This document shows positions 3,363 to 60,151 of a stretch of DNA of 64,000 nt, piece by piece. This DNA comes from Moniliella sp. 'wahieum' (Eukaryota; Basidiomycota; Moniliellomycetes; Moniliellales; Moniliellaceae). The notes under the pieces are model-generated. The model was not told the DNA's origin and did no database searches. It saw nothing but the letters and a program-made list of their open reading frames with translations. How positions within the stretch are numbered: position 1 is the stretch's first letter; each line of letters opens with the position of its first letter. The stretch covers positions 124,001 through 188,000 of the forward strand of contig RSEE01000040.1 of NCBI GenBank assembly GCA_003971905.1, in the 5' to 3' direction. The position numbers and the translations under genes were made by a program.

Positions 3363-6494
<3,132 letters not shown>

Positions 6495-11907: not shown

Positions 11908-14485
11908 ATGGTGCGTGGCTACCCGCTGCTGGGCACCCGGACTATGCTAACTGTCTCTGTAAAAGGGTGTTCCTGCTCTTTTCCACTGGCTGACACGGCG
12001 GTATCCCAGCATCGTCCAACAAGTCGTCGAGGAAGAGGAGGATCCATTCGTAATCGGCGCCGGGGAGGAGGGCCGACGTAACGCGCGGCTGGGGGTTGAC
12101 ATGAGCAGGCCCAACCCAAACGGAGAGGAATTTGATTGTCTGTACCTTGACATGAATGGCATTGTGCATCCTTGTGCCCATCCTCCTGAAGGCCGTCCTG
12201 TCCCCGAGACGGAAGAGGACATGCTGGTGGAGGTGCTGCTGTACACGGAGCGGGTTGTCAACATGATCCGCCCGCGCGTATGCTGTTGATGGCGATTGAC
12301 GGTGTTGCACCTCGCGCCAAAATGAACCAACAGCGCGCGCGTCGTTTCCGGGCCGCTTCAGAGGCAGGGAAAACCCGGGTGGAGAACGCTGCGAAGGTGG
12401 TCAACCTCAGGGCCACAGGGGTGTCCATTCCTGACGAGGAACTGGCCAAGCTGACCAAGACGTCCTGGGACTCGAACTCAATTACCCCGGGTACGCCGTT
12501 TATGGATCTGCTGACTCAGTCCCTCCGCTACTGGGTGGCCAAGAAGATAAATGAGGACCCGGGGTGGAAATATATTACTGTCATCCTTTCTGACGCTTCT
12601 GTCCCAGGAGAAGGAGAGCACAAAATCATGGACTTTGTCCGACGACAACGCACCTTCCCTGACTACGACCCCAACATCCGCCACGTCATTTACGGTATGG
12701 ATGCAGATTTGATCATCCTCTCCCTTGCGACCCACGAGCCGCACTTCAAGGTGTTGCGTGAGGATAACCTCGAAGCTGTACATCAGATTCTCTGCGGAAT
12801 CGCCTCCGAGGAGGGTGAGCTGATTGAGCGGAAAAAAGAACAGCATGCAGCACAGAAGCAGTGGGATATGGACCCGATAAAGTCTCTCAAGCATGCTCCC
12901 AAATCCCGCGAACGCATTGAGAACATCCGTCAAATGCAACCATGTTATATTACTGAGGAGTCCAAAGTCAAAAGGGAGTCTAACCAATCTATGATTCAAA
13001 AGGAATCGGAGCTTCAGGGCGATTGCCAGATGGAGACGAAAGGGAAAGTTTCCTATGCCCATTCCAAGCACAGATCACCCTCATGGTGGGAGAAGGGTGT
13101 TCACACCGACGAGGCCAATGATACTGTTGTGGATAAAAGGATACGTTGTGTTCGTGCTCTGATAAGGAAGAAGAGATCAAGGAAGTGCTGCTGGAGAACT
13201 ACCGTGTTTCCAACACGTCTATCGAGACGCGTGTCGGCACCGCGCATGAGCAGTACTTCAAGGACAAATTTGGTATTGCATTTGATGACCAAAACTCCAA
13301 GCTGGAAGTGGGACGACACTACGTTGAGGGTCTATGCTGGGTGTTAAAGTATTACTACCAGGGCTGTCCCTCGTGGCATTGGTACTATCCTTATCACTTT
13401 GCTCCATATGCGAAAGATTTGGCAACACTTGATCTGAAGGCGGTGAATGGGATCTTTGAGAAGGACCAGCCGTTCCATCCGTACGAGCAGTTAATGGGCG
13501 TCCTCCCCGCTGCATCCCGCGCGATCATCCCAAAAGTCTACCACATGCTGATGACGGAACCACGGAGCGAGATATATGACTTTTATCCTGTCGATTTCCA
13601 GGTTGACATGCATGGTAAGAGGCATGCTTGGCAGGATGTTGCGCTTCTCCCGTTCATCGACCAAACCCGGTTACTCAAGGCTATGGAGGCGCGTACCCCG
13701 CTCCTTACTCCCGATGAAAAAAGAAGAAATGAATTCGGCCATGACTACCTTTTCGTTGGCCCGTCATGCGCAGTGTACGCCGAACTTGCCGCTCTTATGC
13801 AAGCAAGGCTACAACCACTGTGTGGACATTAACACGCGCAAACTTCCCTTCATCCATGGGCATGTCGAGGCCGACCCACAACTGGCAGTCCGGGCAGCAA
13901 CATTTCTAGCCCCTTCACCGACTACCCCGCTTTTCCGGACGTGGCGAATGATCAGTCGATTTCCGTGCGGTATACGCTACCTACAGCCCAATTTGTCCAC
14001 CGTGCCGCCCTTCTTCCGGAGGTAGAGCTGCCTCGGTCGAAGCTGAGACGGATTGGAGATCTCTCCAACATGAAGTGGCGCCCAATCAACACCGGCTCTG
14101 CTGCCTGGCAACACCCCCCCCGCTTTGACATGGGCAAAGGAGGTTCGCAGGGCACTTGGAGCGGGTCACGCTGGTATATGCCCCTAACACCAAAGTGGAA
14201 CCAGGGGCAGAACTGGATCGTATACCACCCTGCCGTCGCAGTATTCGAGCCACGGGAACAATCAGCCGCCGGATGGATGCCTATGGGCAAGATGGGCATG
14301 GGGCTGCTGGTGACTCCGGCCAGGGTGGGTACCAGCACTGCTCTCCCGGCTGCGGGCAAGCATATGTATTGGCCAGCCAAAGCTTAGGGGATAAGGGTCC
14401 CGGCCAGCAAGCTTACCGTCACCCCGGCGATGGCCGCCAGGGCCATTATGGCAAGAGCTATGGCAGATATGCGGAACAAGGGTAA
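11908..14485 (+). CDS. RAT1: RAT1/XRN2 nuclear 5'-3' exoribonuclease, catalytic core incomplete
   Basis: Rat1/Xrn2 degrades 5'-monophosphate RNA in the nucleus and drives transcription termination. The ATG at 11908-11910 is alone in exon 1. Intron 11911-11965 (CTAAC branch, AAAG acceptor) leads to [16 protein letters not shown]. Core motifs present: [12 protein letters not shown] (~12143), [20 protein letters not shown] (~12290), [14 protein letters not shown] (~12603) and [13 protein letters not shown] (~12690). Then LRED runs straight into [20 protein letters not shown] (~12765). The zinc knuckle, the LREYL helix and the VGNDFLPHLP block, with the last catalytic Asp, are missing in a continuous frame. 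The second half is normal ([60 protein letters not shown]). The tail is Gly/Tyr-rich. Frame changes occur near 12275, 13145, 13800 and 14300. Another complete copy must be expected if the gene is essential here. Confidence 0.85.
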
Positions 14486-18183: not shown

Positions 18184-20366
18184 AGAGGGGGGAGGCTATA
18201 TATATACCTTTTTGAATCAATATAGGAGAGGGAGAGATTACCATAGAGCTGCCCCACCTGTGTAGAAATTTGCTTGGAAGGATAGGGAAAAGATCGACGA
18301 CATGACCTGGCTGTTCGTTAAGCGAGGTACCTGGGCACCGTTTCCTTCGCGGGGCATCTGTGGTGTCTGTGGTGTGGTTTCCGGAGAGGCAGAAGATACA
18401 TGAGTGTCGGACTTAGACGGGGAGAGGGGCTTGCTGCTCGTTGCGGCTGAGATGAATGGTTAAAATGATTGACGTTGTTTTGTGATCGGATACACATGTG
18501 CGCAAACGGACGAAGATACTGTAAGTTATACCAATCCATGTAATGAGCCGCAAAAACAAAGCGGGCACAAAAGTGCAGTTTTCTGCGGTAGCTAGTAAGT
18601 GCCCTTGGGAGAATATAGGGACTTGGATCTTATTAGTCTCACGTTGTCTTTTGCATCAGTCATCGATCATCATGCATAGGCGCTCAGGCGCTCACAGGCA
18701 TGACCTCATGCCTATGCACATGCATCTTGTCGATCAGAGACCTGCGAGCGTCGAGAAGCAGCATGATACTGGTGAGACGTGAGCCCGAGGTCCCAACGGA
18801 GGCTGAGTGCCTGAACCTGGAGAGCGACCCGAGCAGGAAGGCAATTCAGGGCGTTACGTGAGCGCTCAGGCTGAGCAGCCTTGCTGAGCCTCTGAGTCTT
18901 CTGCCAAGCGCACACATGTTGGGCCGCCACACACCACCCACACTGGCAGAGTGCTGGGGGCCGGTGCCTGTCTGGACGAGTACCTGGGGCAGGGTCTCCG
19001 GTCGACGGTGCCTGGACGAGGTCCTGGAAGCTGGACATGGAGATAAATGGGTCATCGGATGGGCTATGCGCTCAGCCTGAGCTTTCTACGTGCCACTCAG
19101 TTACCCAAGGCCTCCACAACGCGCACGCCGCACCCACACCATATGCACACTATGCACCGGCGGAAGCTCGTCACGCGTGGTCATCATGCGTCAGAACAGA
19201 AACAAAGAAGACACGGTGCGATGGTGGGGGATAGTCGATAGGGCGGGATTACACGGTATAAAATGAGGTCACCGTGCTGCGTTTCCCCTGCCTATCGATC
19301 AGCGTGACGTAGGGTGTGGCTGAGGGGTACGTGCCACCTGTCTCCCCACTCCTGCGGCCATGCTGTTTCGGGCGGCGAAAGCCATCTCTCCTCAGCGTTT
19401 CCCTCCACAGCTCTCGGTCCGGAGGTTGAGAGCCACCCCGAGACACGTGTTATCGATATCGATCGATTATCGATTACGAAAAGTGCCCGTCGGATCCATT
19501 TTCCTAATAGTGTTGCGTTCAACGTTCCACCATCGGTTGGTACTCTGTCTGGTTCAGTTCAGAACGAGCTCATTCCCCGGAGCACTGCGGTACTGAGGCC
19601 CGAGGCCGCCTAGGCTTGGCGTTCTTCTTAAAAGGGATGCTACAATAGAACCAGATCGTGGCACGTCTGATCCCATCCAGATCTCAGCGGCCTTCAAGCT
19701 TCACCTGTCCACGCCTCTTCTCCACTGCACGAGGCTGGAGCGACTGCTCGCCTACGGCACCCTCTGCGGTGCCACCATGCCATATCCTGTGTATGATAGG
19801 TGATGCTGGGTGACCGGTGACCGGATGCATGATGTTCTTTTATCGCCTGGGGCGTTTCCTCTACTCCTCTCTACGTACGCACGCCTAAAGGGCCCTGCCC
19901 TTCTCATAGCCTCTCCTCAAAATCACACCCGCCATTCTCCTTCAGCCATATGTAGAACAAATAAAATCGAGGAATGTAGCATTGAAGTCTTATTTGAGAG
20001 GCAGATAGTACAGGCAAAACACGCCCAGAAAAAAGGTCCAAGGTTCATCAACGAGATCGCCATCTCATCGTTAGGCATTTTGAATGTGTGTGGGGGGAAG
20101 GGGCGGGGGGTCAAGGTCGCGTCAAAGCACGCAACGCTTAGAGTGTCCAGAACCGTATGACACCCTCCCTCGCCGCCCTGTCACTCCAATGGAAGGCATT
20201 CCCATCGGGGGACTCCCACGTCAGAAAGGGTTGCTTAATGGAGAAATTCCAGAGCATCGCCCCTTCTTCCGTCTTACCGTCAGTGGAGCAGGACGTTCAT
20301 CCACTTCCGTTGAGATCGAGTCATTGGCCGATCCCACCGACAGAGGAGACGAAGGCGCTGTCGCAT
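18184..20366. other. long gene-poor stretch with palindromic word islands
   Basis: No supported gene in about 2.2 kb. It holds CGCTCAGG repeats (18680-18700 and 18835-18900), an ATCGAT-rich palindrome GTTATCGATATCGATCGAT (19449-19467), and a GGTGACCGGTGACCGGATGC island (19799-19826). The part 20122-20366 may still be coding sequence of HAC1 in another frame (DVNATAPSSPLSVGSANDSI), ending at 20122. Confidence 0.4.
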
Positions 20367-21433
20367 TCACATCCGCTGGAGCCAGGGGTCAAGCCCCCAC
20401 TCCGCCTCGGGGAGGCCATCAACAAGGAGCTCTTCACCCATCGGCGACGTGTAAAACAGATCTTCCATCTTTTCTTCCTTTTCTTTCCTTACCTTGAGGG
20501 GCAGGGCAGCGACTGAGAGTTTGCTGCTGCCGTTTCCCCACTCTGAAATGGGCATGGGCCGGTCCAGAGCGGCCAACCCATCCAGGCGCACCTTATCCGT
20601 CCCGTGTGGGGGCAGCACAAACGAAGGAAGAGGGAGAGCGCCCGCTGCTGGGAACCGCCTTCGCTGCTGGAAGGCGAGCGCTCGATCCTTCTTCTTCGCG
20701 GCCCATGGGTGGACGGACTGGTTCGACAGGAGGGGAGGTCGACTGGACGGCTTGCGCTCCAGATTCAGAGGGGGAAGGCGCTGCTAACGTTCCACTTAGC
20801 TGAGGATCCTGCGAGTTCAAGACGGGAGAAGGGGATTCGGAGGTAGAGGGAGAAGAAATGTCTCTCGACGATTTGGGGAGAGGGGGGCTCGGCCAGCGTA
20901 GCAGCAGGATCCACGGCATCGGGATTGAGCGTTGGAAGGAGCGCAACGACTTTACTAAGTTGCTCCTTGGGTCATCAGAATAAGCTTGGACCAATCGGTA
21001 ATGGCTTGGAAGCGCGACTCGTAATCCTGCACTTTGCGCAAGAGTTCGGCATTGTGTCGCGACAGTTCACCCATCTGGGTTTCCAGGGTCGAGACATAGT
21101 TCTTCTTCTTGTCCCGGCTGGCTTGAGCCGAAAGGCGATTTCGGGCCTGACGGGCCTCAAGACGAGCAATGCGCTCGGGGGTCATTGCCTTGGGCCGTTT
21201 GGCAAAGGCAGAAGGATCGGGCGTCGATGACGAGAACGCACGCTTCTTGCCGCCGGCGCCCGTAGATGGATTAGAGGCGAATCCCGACACGGACGGTACT
21301 GGCACCACAGAGGAAGGGGTACCTTGAGGCCCGCCCAGGAGGGTGGAGTATGGATGTGGGCATGGGCCTGGACATGCGCAGAAGCCGGGGCTAGCGCAGC
21401 CAGCCCGCCCGTGTCGGTGGCAGAAGGAGACAT
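20367..21433 (-). CDS. HAC1: HAC1/XBP1-type bZIP factor of the unfolded protein response
   Basis: This nuclear bZIP factor activates ER-stress genes after Ire1 cuts its mRNA. The start is MSPSATDTGGLAALAP at 21433. The basic region EARQARNRLSAQASRDKKKN (about 21150-21090) carries the family signature NRxSAQxSRxxKK, followed by a leucine zipper (YVSTLETQMGELSRHNAELL). Downstream runs LSKVVALLPTLNPDAVDPAA, then a Ser/Pro-rich segment, GREEEGSSARLPA, and a 19-nt segment framed by two CAG|CAG sites. Removing that segment shifts the frame into an open C-terminal segment (LPPHGTDKVRLDGLAALDRP ... KMEDLFYTSPMGEELLVDGL) that ends at 20367 or, with one more indel, at 20122. Unspliced mRNA would stop at ...CAAPTRDG (20593). 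One-base indels are also needed near 20975 (GG) and 20895 (C6). Confidence 0.85.
20648..20666 (-). promoter_or_regulatory. Ire1-type unconventional intron of HAC1 (19 nt)
   Basis: On the minus strand the upstream cut site lies in a perfect 7-bp hairpin: stem 20670-20676 (CGCCTTC) pairs with 20656-20662 (GAAGGCG) around the 7-nt loop CAGCAGC (20663-20669). The loop matches the Ire1 consensus CNG|NNGN. A second CAGCAGC (20644-20650) sits in a weaker hairpin. Cutting after each CAG removes 19 nt. The junction reads LPAAGALPLPSFVLPP and continues in the open C-terminal frame. Known fungal HAC1 introns of 19-20 nt act the same way. The structure was judged by eye. Confidence 0.8.
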
Positions 21434-21499
21434 GGTGAAGGCAAGAGGTGTGCACGGGTTAGCAGGCGGGGTGTGGAGATGGGTTAATGGGGTGGAGGC

Positions 21500-24442: not shown

Positions 24443-25433
24443 TTAGAGCTTGGACTTGGCCAGCGGGTCCTTGCGCGAGATCTTGGCTTTGATCAAGCCG
24501 GAAGGGTGTGTTGAGGGAGGAACCTCGGCATCCTTCTCGTTGGTGTTGGACAACCCTTTAAGGAGAGATCGATGGGGACGTAGTGCTTGTTGGGCAGCGC
24601 ATACTCCACATCCTCCAACCACTTGTGGGCACCAGTCGAAAAGAAAGGCCGCGGGTCGTTGAGAATGTCGGAGGCCATGGTGAACATCGTCGCCTGGACC
24701 GAAGCCGAGTCATCCGTAGCAAATACACGGATCGTGTGTGCCTTAGCCGCGTCGGCAATCGCGTCAAAGTCGGTCAAGCCATCCTTGCTAGACAGAAGCT
24801 GGGGCAGCGGAGTGGCCGGGACGTTGAAGGAATAGGTGAGGTCGATGGCCGTAGAGAAAATGCGGTCGTTGACCGGGACAAGGGTGGTAAATTCATCCTT
24901 GTAGAAGCCATGGAAGGCCGAGCCAGACGATTGAGCACCAACAGGTCCTTCAGCCCGCCTTCCAATTTGCTCACGATGGCCGCTCCCCCGCATTCCGGCG
25001 GCCTCAAGGAAGACCGTGCGCACCTCATTGCCATCCCGAACAAAAGAGTGCTTGTGCGGGCCGTCCTCAAGCACAATGCGCGTCCACTTGAGCTTTTGGA
25101 TAGTCACATCCACCCCAGTCAGATGGTCGTACTTGCCCAAGAAGTGCGCAGCCGCCGACAGGGCGAAACGCTCCGGCACAAGCACGTCCCCGGCGCCAGG
25201 GTCTTCGCCAGAACGTTGAGTGTGTTCTTGACCGAGTCGGTAGCGACAACCAACGAGTTGTCGGCGTGGGTGTAGGACTGGGCCAACTTGTTGTCCTTGG
25301 CCACGGGGCCCCGCAGCAGGCAACGGACAATGTACTCGACAATCTGGTGCTTGCTCTTGTCCTGGGGGTTGCGCACGACACGGAGAATGCGGACCAGGTC
25401 CTTTCCGTAGCTGTAGTCGTAGAGGTGGACCAT
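24443..25433 (-). CDS. UOX: urate oxidase (uricase), peroxisomal
   Basis: Catalyses oxidation of urate to 5-hydroxyisourate in peroxisomes, the first step of the purine ring breakdown to allantoin. Start MVHLYDYSYGKDLVRILRVV at 25433. Family motifs follow: the catalytic-Thr segment ADNSLVVATDSVKNTLNVLA (~25255-25200), VPERFALSAAAHFLGKY, SFVRDGNEVRTVFLEA, GLKDLLVL with SSGSAFHGFYKDEFTTL, NDRIFSTAIDLTYSFNV, TMFTMASDILND and LPNKHYVPIDLSLKG. The C terminus reads KISRKDPLAKSKL, a canonical PTS1 peroxisome signal, with stop 24443-24445. No intron is needed. The span of 991 bases is not divisible by three; one-base frame changes are seen near 25180, 24930-24980 and 24550. Confidence 0.95.
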
Positions 25434-26315
25434 TGTAAAGAGGAGCAAGCTTCGCGGTGAAGGGGGGAGACCTAGGTGGGTGGGGTTGAGGTTGGGGTGG
25501 TAATCTTCCGGCTGCCGTTGAGATTTAAATACCCCAAGGAGCCCCGTAACGTTGACGGGTCAACCGTTCAACCAACCACCTCTCAACAGAAAGATAACAA
25601 AAGGACTGTGCCCGTGCCTAGATTCAATGTTGAACAAACGTTGAACTCTCGCACCGGAGGATACGCAACGCCTTCCGGTTCCCGGCTGAAGTATATGGGC
25701 CAACTTTGCTTTTTTGGCTCCAGTTGCAGCACAGCCTTGCCTCCCCAATAGCGATCCTATTTCGACGCTCGCAGCAACAGTAGGGTACCGGAGCAGTACC
25801 CGAACCACCCGGAACGGACACTCGGTCCAGTTTCCAAGATACACAGCTTAATTATCCGGTTTTCTGACAGCGGCTGAGCGGCTCAGCCACCCACATCACA
25901 CATGAGATCACATCGCCTTGGGCACTAGTCCATCCGACTCTCCCGATGTTGACGAATTCCTCACTCGTGTGGAAATAATCATGTTCTCTTTCTTAGGTCT
26001 TGAGCCCACATTTTTCTGAAGATAATGCTGCCCGCCTGTGCCTGCCTGAGTCACCCGATTCCTCCCCACAGCGCACGGTATGTGGGGTTCTGCATCCCCC
26101 ACCCCCGCAAAGTACCACTGTTGCCGGTGATGTCATGGGCTAGCCCCGGACTGGAGCCCACAGCACCCACAGTTCAGGGGTGATTTCCCTCGGATCAAGA
26201 GAGTCACTAGTCACTCACAGTTTATCTATAACAGGTGTGTGTTGATGAACGCAAATCATGGCGAGTTGAACGGACAAGCTTTAATTGGGGTATCAGCTCG
26301 CGTGGTAAGGTTGCG
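25434..26315. other. uricase upstream region
   Basis: No supported gene. GTTGAAC/GTTCAAC words cluster at 25553-25575 and 25623-25648, 120-215 bp upstream of the uricase start. The remainder up to the retrotransposon shows nothing I can name. Confidence 0.4.
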
Positions 26316-26773: not shown

Positions 26774-27710
26774 GTGAATCTACCCCTACACCTCAACCCC
26801 CCCGTGGGCCCCGACAACACCGCGAACGACGTCGCCACCCTCGCCGACCGCATCGCAACATGTTCAAATTGTTTCCCGAAAACATCACCCTCAAACAGCT
26901 ACAGGACACTGGTATCAAGCTTGGGTACAGCGAAAAGACGACCACAGAAGCCATTGTCATGTTATCATGTGAGAATCCACCCAATGCTAGCAAGAACGAA
27001 GGTGCCTTATCGTCAACTCCGGCCGTCGACGACAACCCGTGGGTTGACTCCCGACAAGCTCCTCCGTAGTGCCACTCGCAGCAACGTGCCGTACCACGAG
27101 CGTTTCCACACAACAGCTCGTTTTGGTATTGGACCCGGATCTTCCTCCCTCGTATCCAGATTATCCCTGGAGCGCGTGAGCATCTGGAAACAGGGCAAGG
27201 CCCTGGACGGGTATAACGCAGAACTGGACGCTCACTTGGCCAACATTCTACTCCCGTGGATAGACTCCGAGTCGTCCAGCAGATCACCGCGATGGCACGC
27301 CGGCTCTAGGGTCTGCATACTATCATGCTCTGCGTGATTTGTACGGCACCGTTTCAGACACTGAGATCTGTGATATCCTCATAAAGGTTCTCACTCTCAA
27401 AATGGGCACACAAGTCGGGCCCGCCAATACCTGAATGAGTTCACTGTGGCGGTAACCCAGTACGAGATGACGTCCAAGTCCAAAGCTGGACGAGATTGGT
27501 CTAGCACAGATGCTACGGAAAGGCGTTACTGATCAGGGGTGGTTGCACCTCCATCGTAACAGCAGCTACGCCGAATTGCGCGAGCAGTGAGCGAATCAAA
27601 GGTCCAACTACGGCAGTACCTCAGTTCAAGCCCAGCTCCTCCAGTACGGCCCTTCGGAAGCCACGTCGCACAGCCAAAACAAGCAGTACGGTGACAGGCC
27701 GCGGACGAGG
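26774..27710 (+). CDS. copia gag (nucleocapsid precursor) region, frames broken
   Basis: Segments in three frames together resemble a copia Gag: a helical part LFPENITLKQLQDTGIKLGY (~26868-26930), later WKQGKALDGYNAELDAHLAN (27188-27250), and ALRDLYGTVSDTEICDILI (~27330-27390). Toward 27700 the sequence becomes Gly/Arg/Gln-rich, as in nucleocapsid tails without a clear CCHC knuckle. The limits are approximate. Confidence 0.6.
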
Positions 27711-27715
27711 CCGAG

Positions 27716-30700
27716 GTGGGCAGCGGGTACAGAGGAAGTCACCGTGGTGGCCAACGTGGCGGCCACTTTAGCCGGCCGGCTACGACAGCCCAGACCACCT
27801 CATCTGCCCATGCAGTAACCCCTATGGCAGCCACTACACCACCCAAGCCAGCCAACCTCCCTGCGCAACACGATTCAGGTGCGAGACCATCCGTATTCAA
27901 TGAACGAAGTGCGTTTATCAATCTTCGTCCACACCGCGAGCCCATAGCAGTGGCAAACGGACAGATCGCATACACTGAAGGCATTGGCACCATCTCTATG
28001 TACATTCAAACCCAGAACGGAGCCCCTATCCGCATCCACCTACCCGGCAGCTTGTACTGCCCCACCTTCCCGACCAACCTGCTCAGCGCTTACCATCTAT
28101 CTATCGCAGGCATTGGCAGCTGGATCCCTCCAGGTGGCCATGGTCTCTATCTCGGACGACACGGCGAACCTTTTCGTCTCGCCGCCGACTCAAGCTATTC
28201 CCTTACTCTGGCGCCCAATACGACAGCCACAGCCAACAGCGCCACTTCGCTACTCAACCTTGATGCAACCCTGGTCAAGGTGAAAAACGCCCACATCCGA
28301 TGGAATCATGCACCTCTAGATCAACTTTCATCCCTCACGTCGGATGACCCAGCATTCGAACGGGTCAACAGTGGCGACATCGCTTTAGTCCGGTCCTCGT
28401 GGCACTGTGCACCATGCGCATTAAGCAGAGCCACTGCCCCACCCCACGCCACGACTGGACGCCCAATCCGAACCATTCGCCCTTTCTCTCTCCTCCACCT
28501 CGACGTCCTTGACATATCCCGCCAAGGCGGGGGTCATACTTACGCCCTTATCATTGTCGACGACTTTACGCGGTATACCTGGACGCTACCCCTGGTGTCC
28601 AAGGGTGATGCCACAGCCGAACTTCAAGCCTTCATCCGGCGCGAGCATCGCCAACATCCCGACCGCCCCCTTCAGACGGTCCGCTCTGACAATGCGCCTG
28701 AACTCACCACCGCAATGGACGAGTTTTACTGCGAGCTGGGAGTAGTGAGCGAGCGCACCAATCCTGGCGAAAGTGCGTCCAATGGGGTCGCCGAACGCGC
28801 CATAAGATCGATTACGGATCGCGCTCGACTCATGGTAATCGCCAACAGATTGACTCCCGACGAGTGGTGGGAACACAGCTTGTTGGCGGCCACATATGCA
28901 CACAACCAGTCGCCGCCGAAAGCACTGGGTGGGGACAGCCGATTTGTCCGGTACCATGGCTTCAAACCCTCCCTTCGCATGCGCGGTTTTGGCACTCTTG
29001 CCTACCTGCACCTATTGCCCAACCAACGCGAGGGCGGCAAACTTGGTCCGCGGGCCGTCCCAGCAATGTTGGTGGGTTACGGGCACGGCCGCGGTTCGAA
29101 GGGGTGGCTCTTTGCCATCCACCAGGACGACGGCCAAGTTGGATTCCGTTGGAAAAAGCCGTCCACCTGGACGCATGTCCCGTACACCACCGAATATCCC
29201 ACGCACTTTCATCTGGACCCCCTTGTCCCTGCTGGTGGCGGAGAGGTGCGGGGGGGCGGAGAAATGGGTGCTGGTGGGAAGTCAGACAGCTCCCCCCCCG
29301 GCGTGTGCGTTTTGCGATAGATGAACTGACCCGCGATACTAATGGTAAGAAAGACAATGCCCCCCATGGAAAAAGAAAATTAAAAGAACGAAAAACAGAG
29401 GCACATCGCCCGGCTCAAGCCAACGAAAATGAGAATTCAGAGCCTGGCCCCACTCCCACCAACTCCAACCCCCCACATGTATCCCCCCAACCTGTTGCAT
29501 CTGACCCCGCAGGCATGGCACAACGCCAGGCAAAGCAAGCCGAAGAAAATGAAACTATCACAGAAGATGCCGTTGACACTGGCCACCAAGTCCTGCTTTC
29601 CCCTCCCTCTTCCACTTCCCCTTCCTCTCCCGCCCTATCCCCCTCCCCTCTCTCCCCACCGACACGCTCGCCCCGTGACCGTGCCCCTGACCGATACAGC
29701 CGTCCCCGCACTCGTGCGTCGCAATCCCGTTCGCCAAGCGCGTATCAACGCTCCACCCCTCGACCTGTCCATTCCAGCCAACGACAATTTGCGCGATGGC
29801 ACCTTTTCCCTGCTCGTCAACAAGGCCCCTAGCATCTTTGGCAACCCGGCCGCCCTCTCCGCCCTAGGAATGCAGGCTTTGGTGAGTATTTTCGGACCAG
29901 CGCCGGACACATCCATGCTACCTGCTTCGGAGCCAAGCTCGCCCCCCATTGCACTCGCAATCGAATCCGCGGCAAGTGACACCGAGGTCATACTGACCAC
30001 CGATGGGGTCCCGGTGGCCCCCAAGAACATCAAGAAGTTGGTGGGTCACCCTGCCTTTGATGGCGTACTCGAGGCAATGCGCCTCGAGCTTCGGCGTTTT
30101 GACGAGCGTGACGTGAAGGAAGTTGTACCCATCCCCCCAGGGATCAAACCCCTTCCCGGCATGTGGGTCATAGGTACTAAGACGGATGCGGATGCTAACT
30201 TCCTCAAGTACCGTGCCCGCTACGTTGTGGGAGGGCACCGGCAAGTTCCTGGCACATGGGCGAAATCTTTTGCTCCTGCCGTTCGTACTGCTGCCGTCAA
30301 CACGCTAATTGCGTTGGCCGAAGCTGATGGCCTCCACTTATTTTCTGCCGATGTGGAAGCTGCCTACCTCTATGCCGATATCAACGAGCTCGTCTATGTT
30401 CGACCACCCCCCTTCTTCCCAGAAGCGCCCGGTCATTGCTGGAGACTCAAGAAAAGTCTCTATGGCCTGCACCAGAGCGGGGCCAACTTTGGAGATTGGC
30501 TCCGCACTTTCCTTTGCGACCGACTCCACTTCACTAGCCTAAAATCAGAGCCTGTTCATACGTCGCACCGAACCTCTTGGCCTGATCCTAATCGCCGTCC
30601 ACACTGACGACTTTTTGGTCGCGTGTCGGTCCCAAGAAGCGTATGATGAATTCTTAGTGGAATTAAGGCGCAGCATCCAAATTAAGTCCAACGGCCCCCT

Positions 30701-31574
30701 ACGTTTCCATCTCGGCTGCCAATACGACCGTATCGATGGACGACTGTACATCAGCCAACCCAAATTCATCGCTGAGACGCTTGCCGCGCATGACATATCA
30801 CCTCACCGGCCCCGCTACCTTCCAATCGGCCACCAACTTCCGCCTCCCAAGCGACCCGAACACGAAAAGCGTGCCACTCGAGACGAGCACCGTGCCTACC
30901 GTTCTATTGTCGGATCCAGCTTGTGGGCGGCTCGTATGTCCCGGCCTGATGCCCTCTTTGCGGCTACCTTTTTAGCGCGGTTTATGGACGACCCGTCCGC
31001 CGCCCACCGACGCGCAGCGGAGGACCTATTACGTTTCTTCGCCGGTACGTCTGACTACTCTTTGTGCCTCACACCCAACCGATCTCGCCCTCTACTCGAG
31101 CTGCACACCGATGCCTCCTTTGCATCAGACAAGAGCAACTCTCACTCCGTTTCGGGCCATGTTGTTTTTGTTTTCGGTGTGCCTGTATCCTGGGGCTCCA
31201 AGTCCCAAAATCAAGGTGTGAGCAACACAGCAGCATCTGAATACCTAGCCATGGGAGATGGCCTTCGAGATGCTCTATTCATTCGCAACATACTGTTTGA
31301 ACTTGGTGTCTGCAAGGCTAATCACCCGATTGAGCTCTTTGTTGACAACACCGCTGCCAAAGCGTTGGCCGAAAAGCTCGGCAGCCTAGGCAAAATACGG
31401 GAGATTGACGTCTCGTACCACGAGGTGCGGGAACGCATCCACCGAGGCGAAATTAAAGTCCACTACACTCCAGGTGCACACCATCTCCCTGACTGGTTCA
31501 CCAAACCTCTTTCTCTTCCCAAGATCATTTCTGCGCGTAACAATTTCGATTTGGCTTCTCTTTCTTCGCGCTGA
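27716..31574 (+). CDS. copia pol: protease, integrase, reverse transcriptase, RNase H
   Basis: An aspartic protease with DSGA at 27872-27883. A GAG-pre-integrase/zinc segment (HIRWNH ... CAPC, 28290-28420). An integrase core with LLHLDVLDI, IIVDDFTRYTW, VRSDNAPEL and the Glu in NGVAERAIR. A low-complexity Pro/Ser linker (29300-29800). Reverse transcriptase from FDGVLEAMRLELRRFDERDV to FSADVEAAYLYADI and RLKKSLYGLHQSGANFGDW. The catalytic box reads HTDD at 30600-30611 where YVDD is usual. RNase H has TDASFASDKS, ASEYLAMGDGL and FVDNTAAKAL. It ends at 31572-31574. Frame changes occur near 29290, 29800 and 30545, so the written sequence does not encode one continuous polyprotein. Confidence 0.92.
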
Positions 31575-55772: not shown

Positions 55773-58700
55773 TCAAGCTTGAGGGCCAGGGCGAGCAACA
55801 TTGATATGGCCACCACGTCCAGGTGCGGCCCCACGTCCACGTCCACGGGGGCCACCGCGTCCCGGCCCCGGCCCCGCCCACGGCCGTTGGACGCGATGTG
55901 CGCCGACTCAGCCGAAAGCGGCGGAACAGACACCGTTCAACAGGGCCAGACGGGGATCCACCGAAGCCGATGCCTGAGCCCGAAGCTGCGACGGGTGGGC
56001 TTCTCCTGAAGCGGTGGCCGAGTAGGATGTGCCGGGAGGACCCCGAAACAGGCGCTTGCCCCTGCGGGCGAGAGAGAATACGCGGTGGACCCTTGGCTGG
56101 GACGAAGCCCGAAGGCGGCTTGGAAACCGGGCCCGTCGAAAAGGTCGGGCCATGGGCGTCACGGGAAGGTGCTGGCCCCGTGCCCGCGGGCACTGCCTGT
56201 CTGAACATCACGGAGGGTGCGGGTCAATGCGTCCTGGTGCACATAGGGTGCCGCGCCCTTAGAGTTGCTTTCGGCGACAAACTGAGCCGCCGTCATGTTC
56301 AGCACTTGGTGAAATTGCACTGTAGCCCCACAGTGCGGGCGACACCGGCCCTGGAGGTTAGAACCTCCAAGGAAGGGGAAGTCAAACACTGCGTCAATCG
56401 AGCTCACATTCAGCCCAACAACGACCCCCATTGCCGCAAGGGGCACCGAACCCGAGTCCTGTACCACCACCAGCCGGTCCCCGAGCGAGAACGTTTGACC
56501 CTTGAGACGGAAGGCCGAGTGGCTCGGCTTGAGGACTGCCTGGCGCGGAATGTTCTTGATGACCATCGATTTAACCCCTGTCGGGCCTTGGCCTTGGTCT
56601 GAAGATGAAGCCTGCGACGCCCGCATCCAGCCCATGCGCTCTGTGAAGCCTTCGATAGTCTGCACAGTCTCACGATCGAGCTGCTCGGCAAAGAGCGGTA
56701 CCGTTTCGAGGTCACGGACTTTCTTCTCTTTGACCCAAGCTTTGACAGCTTCCATCCGGGACGCCGCGTTTTCTCCGAAAATGTCTTCAGCCGTGCGCAC
56801 CTCGTCCTTGCCATGCGACGGAGACAGCGCAGCAAACACTTCCGGAAATGCCGCCTTGTACTCACTGATGAGCTCGATTGCCTTCTCGGAAAACTCCCAG
56901 CCGTGAAGGTTCTTTCGCGAGTACCCCAGTACTTTCAACGACTTGGCCTCAAATTTAAGATTCAGGCCCAAGTTAACCCGTGATTCCTTGTACTGAATCA
57001 GCACAGTCGATGTGACCCGAGCGAGAGCAAGCGGGTGGGCGAAAAGTCTGCGGGCCACCATTGACGAAGTAAAGTACTTGTCAGGCGAGCGGCTCTGGAC
57101 AATTTTGGCCAGCGCTTGGTTCTCTTTAGCTTGCAACACAAACGCTCGCAATTCCAGTGCCATTGCCGTCTTGTTAGAGGCCACAACCGTGGCGGGAGCA
57201 CCATAGAGTTCCTTCCCAAGGAAGAAGACGTGTTCGCCAACGGGAAATTCACGGTCGAGAGGCAGGGCCTTGCGCTCCATGTAACGTGAGTCTTCCTGGC
57301 TGACCGACGAGACAGAAAGTTGTAGCGCTTGCAATGCTTCCATCTTGGGGTCATGCTCATACTCTTTGAGAAACGAGCTATCATCCATAAGCTGCAGGCC
57401 CTTGAGTGGCCGGGTGTGGAGTAGCATAGTCACTTCGCCAATCACAACACCGAAGCGTTTGTCGTAAGTATGCTCGATTTTGCGAGCTTGCCGGATCCAA
57501 TCGCGGGCCGCCTCGGGCGAGTGCTCGTTGCTCACAATAGCACGCTTGCCTCCAATCAGGCCCATCTCATGCTTGAAGTACGCATCGCTCACGGCAACCA
57601 CCAGTGCCTCCTGAAGGAAGGGCCAGTTCACAAAGGTGCGCATTCCAATGGTTGCCTTGGCCACATCATCCGTCGTCCTTCATAGCGGCTCTCAATCGTG
57701 ATGACCATCGACTGATTGCGGCTGTCCTGCTGGAAAAGGTTCACTTGATGGAAGTCGAGCTCGGCCACGTGGGGTAAAGTCTTTAGCGAAGGGAAGCCGG
57801 GTAGAGCGTTGGCCCAAGTGTACCCCATTGCACAAGTCGTGATGCAACTTGTTTACCTCGAGGGGAGGGAGATAAAAGGGCTGAGCCTTGGCCCGGGCAT
57901 GGAGTAGATCAGGGAACACCCCCGGTAGCGACGAGGAGAGGGGGTGCTCAAATTCTTCATCATACGAGAAACTTGTTGCTGGTTGAGACGAATTGCGGCG
58001 GTGTTCCTCGTCGCTAAGAAGGGCATCGCGCTTCTCCAGCTCACGGATCAGGCGCGCCTCTTCGATGAAGGGAATCTTGACGACTGCCTCCCAGCTCGCT
58101 TTCTTTCCGTTGAGGTCCGACTCAAAGTTCATAGGATAGAAATCGATTAGCGGCGAGGAGGGGTCCGTCATAAGCTGCTGAAACGGAACGGGGACCAACG
58201 CCTTGGAAAGGGGAGGTAGCACACCCATTAGCTGTGCAAACGGCTTGAATGGCGTGCCCAGCTCGAAGTTGAACTTCATGTCGCTGACATCTGCGATGTC
58301 GCTAATACGCGGCGCATAGTGGTAATCGTAAAACCAACCCCATGAAACAACACCGCGGTAATAATAGAACAACACCCATTGCAGACCCTCGATGTAGCGA
58401 TACGCCAACATGTCGATCGCCTTTTGGTCCTTGAGATCAATACCCATCTTCTCTTTGTAGTATTTCGTCTTGATGGTAGTGATATTTGCGTCCAATTTGT
58501 CCTGTCGTTGCTTGTCAAGATCCTCCTGAGCCGCTTCGGCAGTCGTCTCAATTGTGGCTTGAGAGTACTTCTGAAGAACACGATTAATCGCTGCCTGTGA
58601 CTCGGCCAAGGCAATGGGGTCCGTCTCGTCTGAACTCGAGTCGCCGTCAGCCCAAACAGGCAACATCCCAATCGTGGTCCTCGTCCCGTCCGTCTCAGGA

Positions 58701-60151
58701 TCATAGTCATCCAAGGAGAGCTTGAGATGCAAACTCTCGGTCAATTTTTGGAGGAATGCCCGGTCCTCTGCTGCAGCCATTTGGTCCGAAGGAATCGTTA
58801 CTTCGGATGGAGTAGTACCTTGGTTGGACTGCTGCGCCTCAACAAACGTCTTGACCTGGTCAAACACGTCCTTCTGAGAAGGAGTGAGAACCAGGTCACC
58901 ACGAGCGCGGGACTTCTTGACCGCCTTAGCCTTAGACTTGGCTACCGAACGGGTCAAGTTAGGACCAGCATCCGACACGGCCTCCTCAAGCTTGTTGCGC
59001 TCAAACTCTTCAATCCCCCGAGAAGAAGCTGAAGGCGATCGACACGAAGAACGCCGCCCTCATTCAAGTACCCACCCGCAGTGGGGAGGATATTCTTGTA
59101 GATGCCAAACAGAAGCTCGAGGGCACCCTCGTTGATGTGTAAATGGAAGATGCGGCAAAAGTCGTTCCCAACGAAAATACAAATCAGGATGAAGTCATCG
59201 ATGATCGACTCTAGTGAGTAAGGGAAAGGCAGAGTTGACTTGAGGTCGGAGAACTCGAGGTCAAGATATTCCCGGAATAAGGATAAATGGAGCAAGAAAA
59301 AGTTCTGGCTCTGGAGCCTGGAAGCAAGGGAGTCAGTACTTTTCGTCTCAAGATCAAGTTTAAGAGAGTGAAACTCACGTTCCTTTGCCCTTCCGCCTCG
59401 GGCCAAATTGGACCTCCTCACGGAGGAGGGCAAAATGAGGGTCGTGACTGACGAGTCCAAGCATGATAAGATCGGCATCCAACCCATACAAACAATGGCG
59501 AATATTAGGGTTGTAACCTTCCTGGGCCTTGTGGAGACGAATGTACTCCATGATCTTGTGTTCCCCCTCACCGGGTACCTCATGGCCGGAAAGAATAACT
59601 TGCACGCCGCGCCACTCGGCATCCTCCGAGATCTTCTTGGAGACAAAGTAGCGCAGCTGCTCAGATAGACGGGCCATGAAGGGAGTACCAGGAGTAATGG
59701 CATTCGAATCAAACGCGTCCTCCTCAGGGAGAACCTCACCGCGCTTGAGAGCCTTGTCCTAACCTCTTTTGCCTCCTGAGCGGTGCGGAAACGACGAGAG
59801 CGTTGCTGGTTCATCTTAGCACGTGGGGCGACGCCATCAATGGCCATAAACATGAGTTTCTTGGGCTTGATGATGACAAAGATGCTCAATGTAAGCAAAA
59901 AATGGCCATGTAGAGCTGGGCATCGGTCTGGCGGAAGGAGGCATCATCGTCATTGGGATGAGAGCAGTTGTGAATGATACCGTTCATGTCGAGGTAGAGG
60001 TTGTCGAACTCGGGGATCTTCTCGCCCTCGATCAGCTGAGAGATCATCGGATAGCGTTCCGACACATGTCGGAAGAACTTGGGAATACCTGGTCAAGAAA
60101 TGTCAGTCGCAGCACACGGCGCAGCCGCATGGAAGAAGGCCACGCACCCAT
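55773..60151 (-). CDS. XRN1: XRN1 cytoplasmic 5'-3' exoribonuclease
   Basis: XRN1 degrades decapped mRNA in the cytoplasm. Exon 1 is only ATGG (60151-60148); intron 60147-60089 leads to [20 protein letters not shown]. Catalytic motifs: [50 protein letters not shown] and [12 protein letters not shown]. Intron 59378-59318 follows, then [13 protein letters not shown] and ICIFVGNDF with the last catalytic Asp (~59160-59175). Next come [20 protein letters not shown] and [17 protein letters not shown]. The C-terminal half (SH3-like region) has a Gly/Arg-rich end ([17 protein letters not shown]) stopping at 55773. After VGNDF the usual LPHLP is replaced by CRI, explained by compensating indels. Other frame changes lie near 59760, 59000, 57790, 57680 and 56160. 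Confidence 0.93.

Follow-up and report, generated by a model that had tools for sequence, protein, structure and literature searches.

The minus strand of the window (the whole 64-kb stretch of DNA analysed) carries a bZIP gene that is very probably a HAC1/XBP1-type regulator of the unfolded protein response (UPR), with an mRNA predicted to be spliced by Ire1. The first-pass annotation had proposed a 19-nt Ire1-type intron in HAC1, and this reading gains support from the bZIP domain, the paired loops in 7 of 8 copies in the genome, a switch in reading frame and the presence of genes for both Ire1 and Trl1. As far as the genome sequence tells, this would be an ordinary mechanism, with good support, in an unusual multi-gene setting. 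The features of the gene in the window are as follows.

20235..21433, minus strand: HAC1-like gene; its ATG at 21433 has homologues in the other copies, and its stop at 20235-20237 aligns with the one that ends the spliced frame in C14
21006..21170, minus strand: bZIP domain PF00170 (bZIP_1), E 2.1e-9, residues 96-150 of frame 20955-21455
20674..20683, minus strand: predicted zipper arm of exon 1, GAGCGCTCGC, exon-exon pairing
20656..20676, minus strand: 5' Ire1-type hairpin CGCCTTC-CAGCAGC-GAAGGCG, with its loop at 20663-20669 and a 7-bp Watson-Crick stem
20648..20666, minus strand: putative Ire1 intron of 19 nt, with a CAG|CAGC cut at either end
20644..20650, minus strand: loop CAGCAGC of the 3' Ire1 site, on a stem of 3 pairs
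20636..20645, minus strand: predicted zipper arm of exon 2, GCGGGCGCTC, exon-exon pairing
20593..20595, minus strand: stop codon that ends the unspliced frame (TRDG*)
20235..20647, minus strand: exon 2, encoding a C-terminus that is acidic and hydrophobic and has its homologue in the C14 copy

The Ire1-type cassette and the reading frames

The cassette spans 48 nt (minus strand, 20683..20636) and reads GAGCGCT CGCCTTC CAGCAGC GAAGGCG GTTCC CAGCAGC GGGCGCTC. The 7-bp stem, the loop CAGCAGC and the second CAGCAGC 19 nt downstream, all annotated in the first pass, were recovered exactly at 20644-20676 on the minus strand, while the description of the hairpin as near-ideal suits the 5' hairpin and not the 3' loop with its 3 closing pairs. 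Both loops of the window copy are consistent with the Ire1 consensus CNG|CNGN. Because the same heptamer is present at both sites, an equal shift of both cuts within it yields the same product, and cDNA could fix the length of the intron but not the bond; the ambiguity is narrowed by the copies on C117, C112 and C194, with loops CTGCAGT and CCGCTGC.

To scan for the complete motif, we defined it as a stem of at least 7 pairs, a CNGCNGN loop and a partner site 15-70 nt further on that is closed by at least 2 pairs. It occurs once on the two strands of the 64-kb window, whereas dinucleotide shuffles (n=100) contained a mean of 0.00 motifs per 64 kb on both strands with Watson-Crick pairs and 0.06 with G-U pairs allowed. 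A spliceosomal GT-AG intron was ruled out, since the segment is only 19 nt long and starts with CA. At gathering score, Rfam reported two tRNAs only in the window, and near the gene, at E values up to 5, it gave three matches far under their gathering scores, none of them of the Ire1 type.

Elsewhere the window contains a uricase gene (PF01014) at 24493-25524 and two XRN exonuclease genes at 12190-13347 and 56159-59943, the latter spread over several frames and encoding XRN_N, XRN_M, XRN1 D1, D2/D3 and SH3 domains. A retrotransposon at 27695-31574, also in several frames, is Ty1/copia-like by the Pol_BBD, integrase and SH3 domains in 27695-29320, and the remainder was assigned by eye. A long low-complexity tract at 3386-5522 lies in large open frames and encodes (SG)n, (QA)n or (RL)n depending on the frame.

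Removal of the 19 nt shifts the frame just 5' of the hairpin (ORF 20593-20994) onto the open segment LPPHGTDKVRLDG, and the part of exon 2 beyond 20593 is connected to the bZIP in the spliced frame only. The first-pass annotation held that removal joins the bZIP half to the C-terminus, which is borne out for the C14 copy, but not for the window copy. Here, the bZIP frame ends at 20955 and the frame that enters the hairpin is a different one, so that removal of the 19 nt does not by itself link the bZIP to the C-terminus. Alignment with the C7, C14 and C19 copies revealed additional frame-changing indels in the window copy; such indels are also found in the C7 and C19 copies and elsewhere, for instance in Ire1. 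The upstream frame changes were at first considered as a sign of a short conventional GT-AG intron, an idea that was dropped since the sibling copies have open frames there. In a PDB search the top ranks were taken by an uncharacterized protein and CREB bZIPs, and no HAC1 or XBP1 was named.

The C14 copy is open from the ATG through the bZIP into the hairpin and can be read without any conventional intron. From the ATG homologous to 21433 (position 1377 of L010) its protein has 280 residues unspliced and 396 spliced, or 525 and 641 residues from an ATG farther upstream, and the tail past the cut point grows from 24 to 140 residues. To examine the coding constraint, we counted differences at codon positions 1, 2 and 3 of the spliced frame past the unspliced stop, and obtained 18/111, 7/110 and 34/111 for C40 (the window copy) against C14 and 16/112, 6/111 and 34/111 for C7 against C14. 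The excess at third positions indicates that the spliced frame is translated past the unspliced stop. Upstream of the cassette the corresponding counts are 46/249, 35/249 and 90/247, and inside it 0/16 for each codon position between C40 and C14; the stretch just before the unspliced stop has 5 differences in total for C40, insufficient to distinguish the frames. The spliced frame of the C117, C112 and C194 copies reaches a similar region only past a frame change, which we take for an indel.

Copies of the gene and the splicing enzymes in the genome

The genome (69.5 Mb in 223 contigs) contains at least 12 matches to the bZIP stretch, and the hairpin is present in 8 of these, located on C40, C7, C14, C19, C117, C112, C194 and C59. 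A search of the 69.5 Mb for CGCCTTC-N7-GAAGGCG gave 8 places, all in class-1 bZIP genes, against 1 for the backward control. As all 8 places belong to one bZIP family, the pattern is neither due to chance nor to a base-calling error. The distance between the loops is 19 nt in every copy, and two CNG|CNGN loops at this distance are present in 7 of the 8 class-1 copies, with C59 failing at the 5' loop. The repetition of the 19-nt arrangement in all 8 copies also settles that the frame change is no base-calling error, the outcome that the first-pass annotation had named as refuting its reading.

Relationships among the copies were drawn from 5-kb stretches. C40 and C7 are 94.6 and 94.5% identical in two pieces, C14 and C19 are 94.2% identical across 3.5 kb and then 84.6% across 0.8 kb, and C117 and C194 are 97.4% identical; judged by these sequences, each pair looks like alleles or recent copies. 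C112, with 85.6% identity to C117 across 5 kb, would be either an allele of C117 or an extra locus. C59 groups with no other copy, and no allele of it was found among the 12 bZIP matches listed. The Xrn1 gene close to HAC1 on C40 is present only on C40 and C7, which fits a two-haplotype assembly. From these comparisons we infer at least four class-1 HAC1 loci per haploid set, in an assembly that looks two-haplotype and indel-rich. Contig pairs are about 91-97% alike around these genes, and conserved genes often have frame changes. The genome is fungal-like: its EF1A bears the insertion shared by animals and fungi, and one cyclase region combines PP2C and cyclase domains, as fungal adenylate cyclases do. 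No chlorophyll-binding family was detected, and SAS-6 gave no match either, nor did its control.

The C59 copy (L013, ~2094-2141) retains the 5' stem and the zipper arms but has loop 1 changed to CACCAGC. The G before the cut, the scissile G, reads as C in the assembly, which breaks the consensus, and C59 seems to have lost a cut site. Its unspliced frame is open well beyond the cassette, but the spliced one runs for only about 28 codons, so that excision would not append a long C-terminal region in this copy.

Four class-2 bZIP genes, RNRASAQASRDKKKAF, are mutually very similar (L015 on C4, L016 on C12, L017 on C16 and L018 on C24). A scan for a CNGNNGN loop on a 5' stem of at least 5 pairs with a partner 15-70 nt off found no paired hairpins in L015, L016 and L018 and a single one in L017. 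The latter, at 4546, was judged unrelated, as it is located about 2.5 kb beyond the bZIP and its loops are 65 nt apart. The same scan listed 6 of the 8 class-1 cassettes; it missed C112 and C59 because of the weak 3' stem and the C59 loop, and weak class-2 cassettes would thus escape as well. The class-2 genes are possibly HAC1 relatives without the intron.

An Ire1 with kinase and RNase is present in the genome. The RNase domain (PF06479) gave five matches on four contigs, namely C6, C5, C80 (in two pieces) and C27, the last with one in-frame TGA. These stretches (L042 on C6, L043 on C5, L044 on C27 and L045 on C80) apparently represent two Ire1 genes, each in two haplotypes. The kinase end and RNase of the C6 Ire1 match yeast Ire1 (2rio) at E 2.2e-46, and the RNK.HH motif is present. 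Residues that we take to be Y1043, R1056, N1057 and H1061 in yeast numbering are matched in the C6 Ire1. By count, the positions of yeast K992 and Y1059 are occupied by His and Ala, unlike both the cerevisiae and the pombe states; in yeast Ire1 these two residues govern stringency, as stated in an excerpt of PMC8104961. All three Trl1 domains were found on C10, the ligase PF09511 at 4.3e-23, the kinase PF08303 at 2.8e-14 and the CPD domain PF08302 at 1.5e-5, in a gene split by a frame change.

Conservation and folding of the cassette

To quantify conservation along the gene, we compared four lineages (C40, C14, C117 and C59) at 1180 positions of the window copy, counting gaps as disagreement. 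The four agree at 26% of the positions, with an identity of 79.9% between C40 and C14 and of 49-58% for the other lineage pairs. No other part of the gene is as well conserved among the four lineages as the cassette, with 38 of its 48 positions invariant versus 35 in the best cassette-free window, located in the bZIP. The 10 variable positions comprise 4 consensus N positions (positions 2 and 7 in loop 1, positions 2 and 5 in loop 2), 4 of the five spacer bases, 1 base of the exon-2 zipper arm (G or A opposite U, so that pairing is kept) and the third base of loop 1, which is changed in C59 only. Not a single base varies in the 5' hairpin stem. As no pair has changed on both sides, the support for the stems comes from invariance rather than from covariation.

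Blastn comparison of the 5-kb stretches of C40 and C117 (E 1e-5, same strand) yielded two matches and nothing further: 195 nt of the bZIP at 70.8% identity and 58 nt over the cassette at 82.8%. The comparison of C14 with C117 added one match of 57 nt near the N-terminus. Gene conversion may have contributed to the conservation of the cassette. The copies act as natural replicates that show which bases matter, with hardly any change in the 5' stem, at the consensus positions and in the exon arms while the N positions and the spacer drift.

In the folding that the first pass had proposed as a check, the 5' hairpin has 7 pairs in all 8 copies and a predicted energy of -9.6 kcal/mol by itself, and the two-loop form is the minimum-energy fold in none of them. 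In the uncut 48-nt RNA the two-loop form, the energies of which include an outer stem, lies above the minimum in all 8 copies, by 2.3 (C59) to 7.4 kcal/mol (C112). The minimum versus the two-loop form was estimated to -21.8 versus -16.0 kcal/mol for C40, C7, C14 and C19, to -22.9 versus -15.7 for C117 and C194, to -22.9 versus -15.5 for C112 and to -21.5 versus -19.2 for C59. Folds of 69 nt were not clearly more stable than their shuffles for C40 (z -0.84), C14 (-0.72) and C59 (-1.15); the value for C117 was -2.25. The weak point of the Ire1-intron reading is the 3' stem, which has 2 pairs in C59, 1 in C112 and 3 in the remaining 6 of the 8 copies.

The minimum fold of the window copy consists mostly of exon-exon pairing. 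Once the intron is removed, GAGCGCUCGC and GCGGGCGCUC at the exon ends are predicted to form 10 pairs with an energy of -20.0 kcal/mol as a duplex (-20.7 kcal/mol in C117, where a U-A replaces the U-G pair), and these 10 pairs are retained in all 8 copies. When the same geometry was applied to 127,760 window positions on both strands, 31 reached -20, indicating that such pairing is rare but not unique. We read the modelled exon-exon pairing as a putative zipper of the XBP1 type. Two points speak against this reading, namely that the pairing is predicted to compete with the cleavable form in the uncut RNA and that covariation lends it no backing.

Mechanism, alternatives and known systems

In the mechanism that we propose, the mRNA of unstressed cells would be translated into a bZIP protein whose tail is short (24 residues past the cut in C14). 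Upon ER stress, Ire1 would cleave both 7-nt loops at CNG|CNGN and free the 19 nt, pairing of the exons through the zipper could drive intron ejection and ligation, and the shifted frame would append the conserved C-terminus of 140 residues, the would-be activation domain. Cleavage, ligation, control by stress, the function of the zipper and an activating effect of the added C-terminus are predicted, while the loops, their spacing, the 5' stem, the frame switch, the constraint on the spliced frame and the genes for Ire1 and Trl1 can be read in the genome itself.

An alternative is that programmed +1 ribosomal frameshifting at the hairpin joins the two frames. There is a stem-loop at the frame junction, the downstream frame is under coding constraint, and 19 nt equals +1 modulo 3. 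Yet frameshifting would require neither a second CNG|CNGN loop nor a fixed spacing of 19 nt nor exon-exon pairing, loop bases vary only where the Ire1 consensus has an N, except in C59, and the genome has both Ire1 and Trl1, which makes this explanation highly improbable. We give next to no credence to the idea that the hairpin is a site of Ire1-dependent decay (RIDD) or other regulatory cleavage, at which the mRNA is cut and not rejoined. A single loop is enough for decay and the 3' hairpin is weak, but two sites at a fixed spacing, the 10-bp exon-exon pairing, the protein-level constraint acting on the spliced frame and the Trl1 gene in the genome all favour rejoining. A sequencing or assembly error, with CAGCAGC loops that arose by chance or from a CAG-type repeat, might be suspected in an assembly so rich in frame-changing indels, where they break up the copies on C40 and C7 as well as other genes, but this has a negligible probability and is already refuted by the other copies, as the arrangement recurs in lineages only about 50% identical over the gene, the differing loops of C117, C112 and C194 keep to the consensus and shuffles hardly ever produce the motif.

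The replicate cassettes make the zipper model testable in a 48-nt RNA, and they raise the question of how a single Ire1 pathway would act on several HAC1 genes. We would not have expected the apparent presence of at least four HAC1 loci, nor the C59 variant. A tentative scheme, which we consider conceivable rather than probable, is that the UPR runs through these loci with an ultraconserved, bistable cassette (cleavable two-loop or exon-zipped) that has outlived the divergence of the proteins. The 5' site of C59 would have become deaf to Ire1 through loss of the scissile G, the class-2 paralogues without the cassette would escape Ire1, and a single sensor pathway would give graded outputs.

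Introns spliced by Ire1 are a textbook case of cytoplasmic splicing, the HAC1 gene of the yeast Candida albicans is single and HAC1 is usually treated as a single gene per fungus. Among the matches listed in a literature search, no title or abstract beginning mentioned multiple HAC1 genes per fungus, which is no proof of absence. It is the family of at least four inferred loci that appears to be new here, and not the short intron.

The RNA zipper of XBP1 was reportedly described by Peschek in 2015. It is mentioned in a portion of PMC6037481, while excerpts of PMC8674358 and PMC4836707 hold nothing more on the zipper or on the length of the Cib1 intron. As in the metazoan XBP1 zipper, the pairing of the exons could promote intron ejection and ligation, but unlike in XBP1 the predicted arms form an uninterrupted 10-bp pair that would compete with the cleavable form in the uncut RNA. 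For ligation the genome offers a fungal-type Trl1, in contrast to RTCB in metazoans (PMC4891664, in part).

With Saccharomyces cerevisiae HAC1 the gene shares two CNG|CNGN Ire1 loops, a frame switch and, as a prediction, ligation by Trl1; the consensus for yeast Ire1 is given as CNG|(C/A)NGN in an excerpt of PMC8104961. The intron of S. cerevisiae HAC1 is 252 nt long (PMC6627864, in part) and pairs with the 5' UTR (PMC6592678, in part), for which a 19-nt intron has scant room. The first-pass statement that some fungi have introns of 19-20 nt and Cryptococcus a longer one agrees with published excerpts, which give 19 nt for Candida albicans HAC1 (PMC6222058), 20 nt for Aspergillus fumigatus and 56 nt for the unconventional intron of Cryptococcus neoformans HXL1 (PMC3154848). 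Like HXL1, as described in the same excerpt, the gene encodes a fungal bZIP mRNA with CAG at either intron border, where splicing is here predicted, but its intron is 19 instead of 56 nt long, and HXL1 also has a conventional intron of 55 nt whereas C14 needs none. Another close match is C. albicans HAC1, by published description a bZIP gene with an unconventional intron of equal length between two hairpins; unlike in C. albicans, at least four class-1 loci in one genome appear to have a common cassette here.
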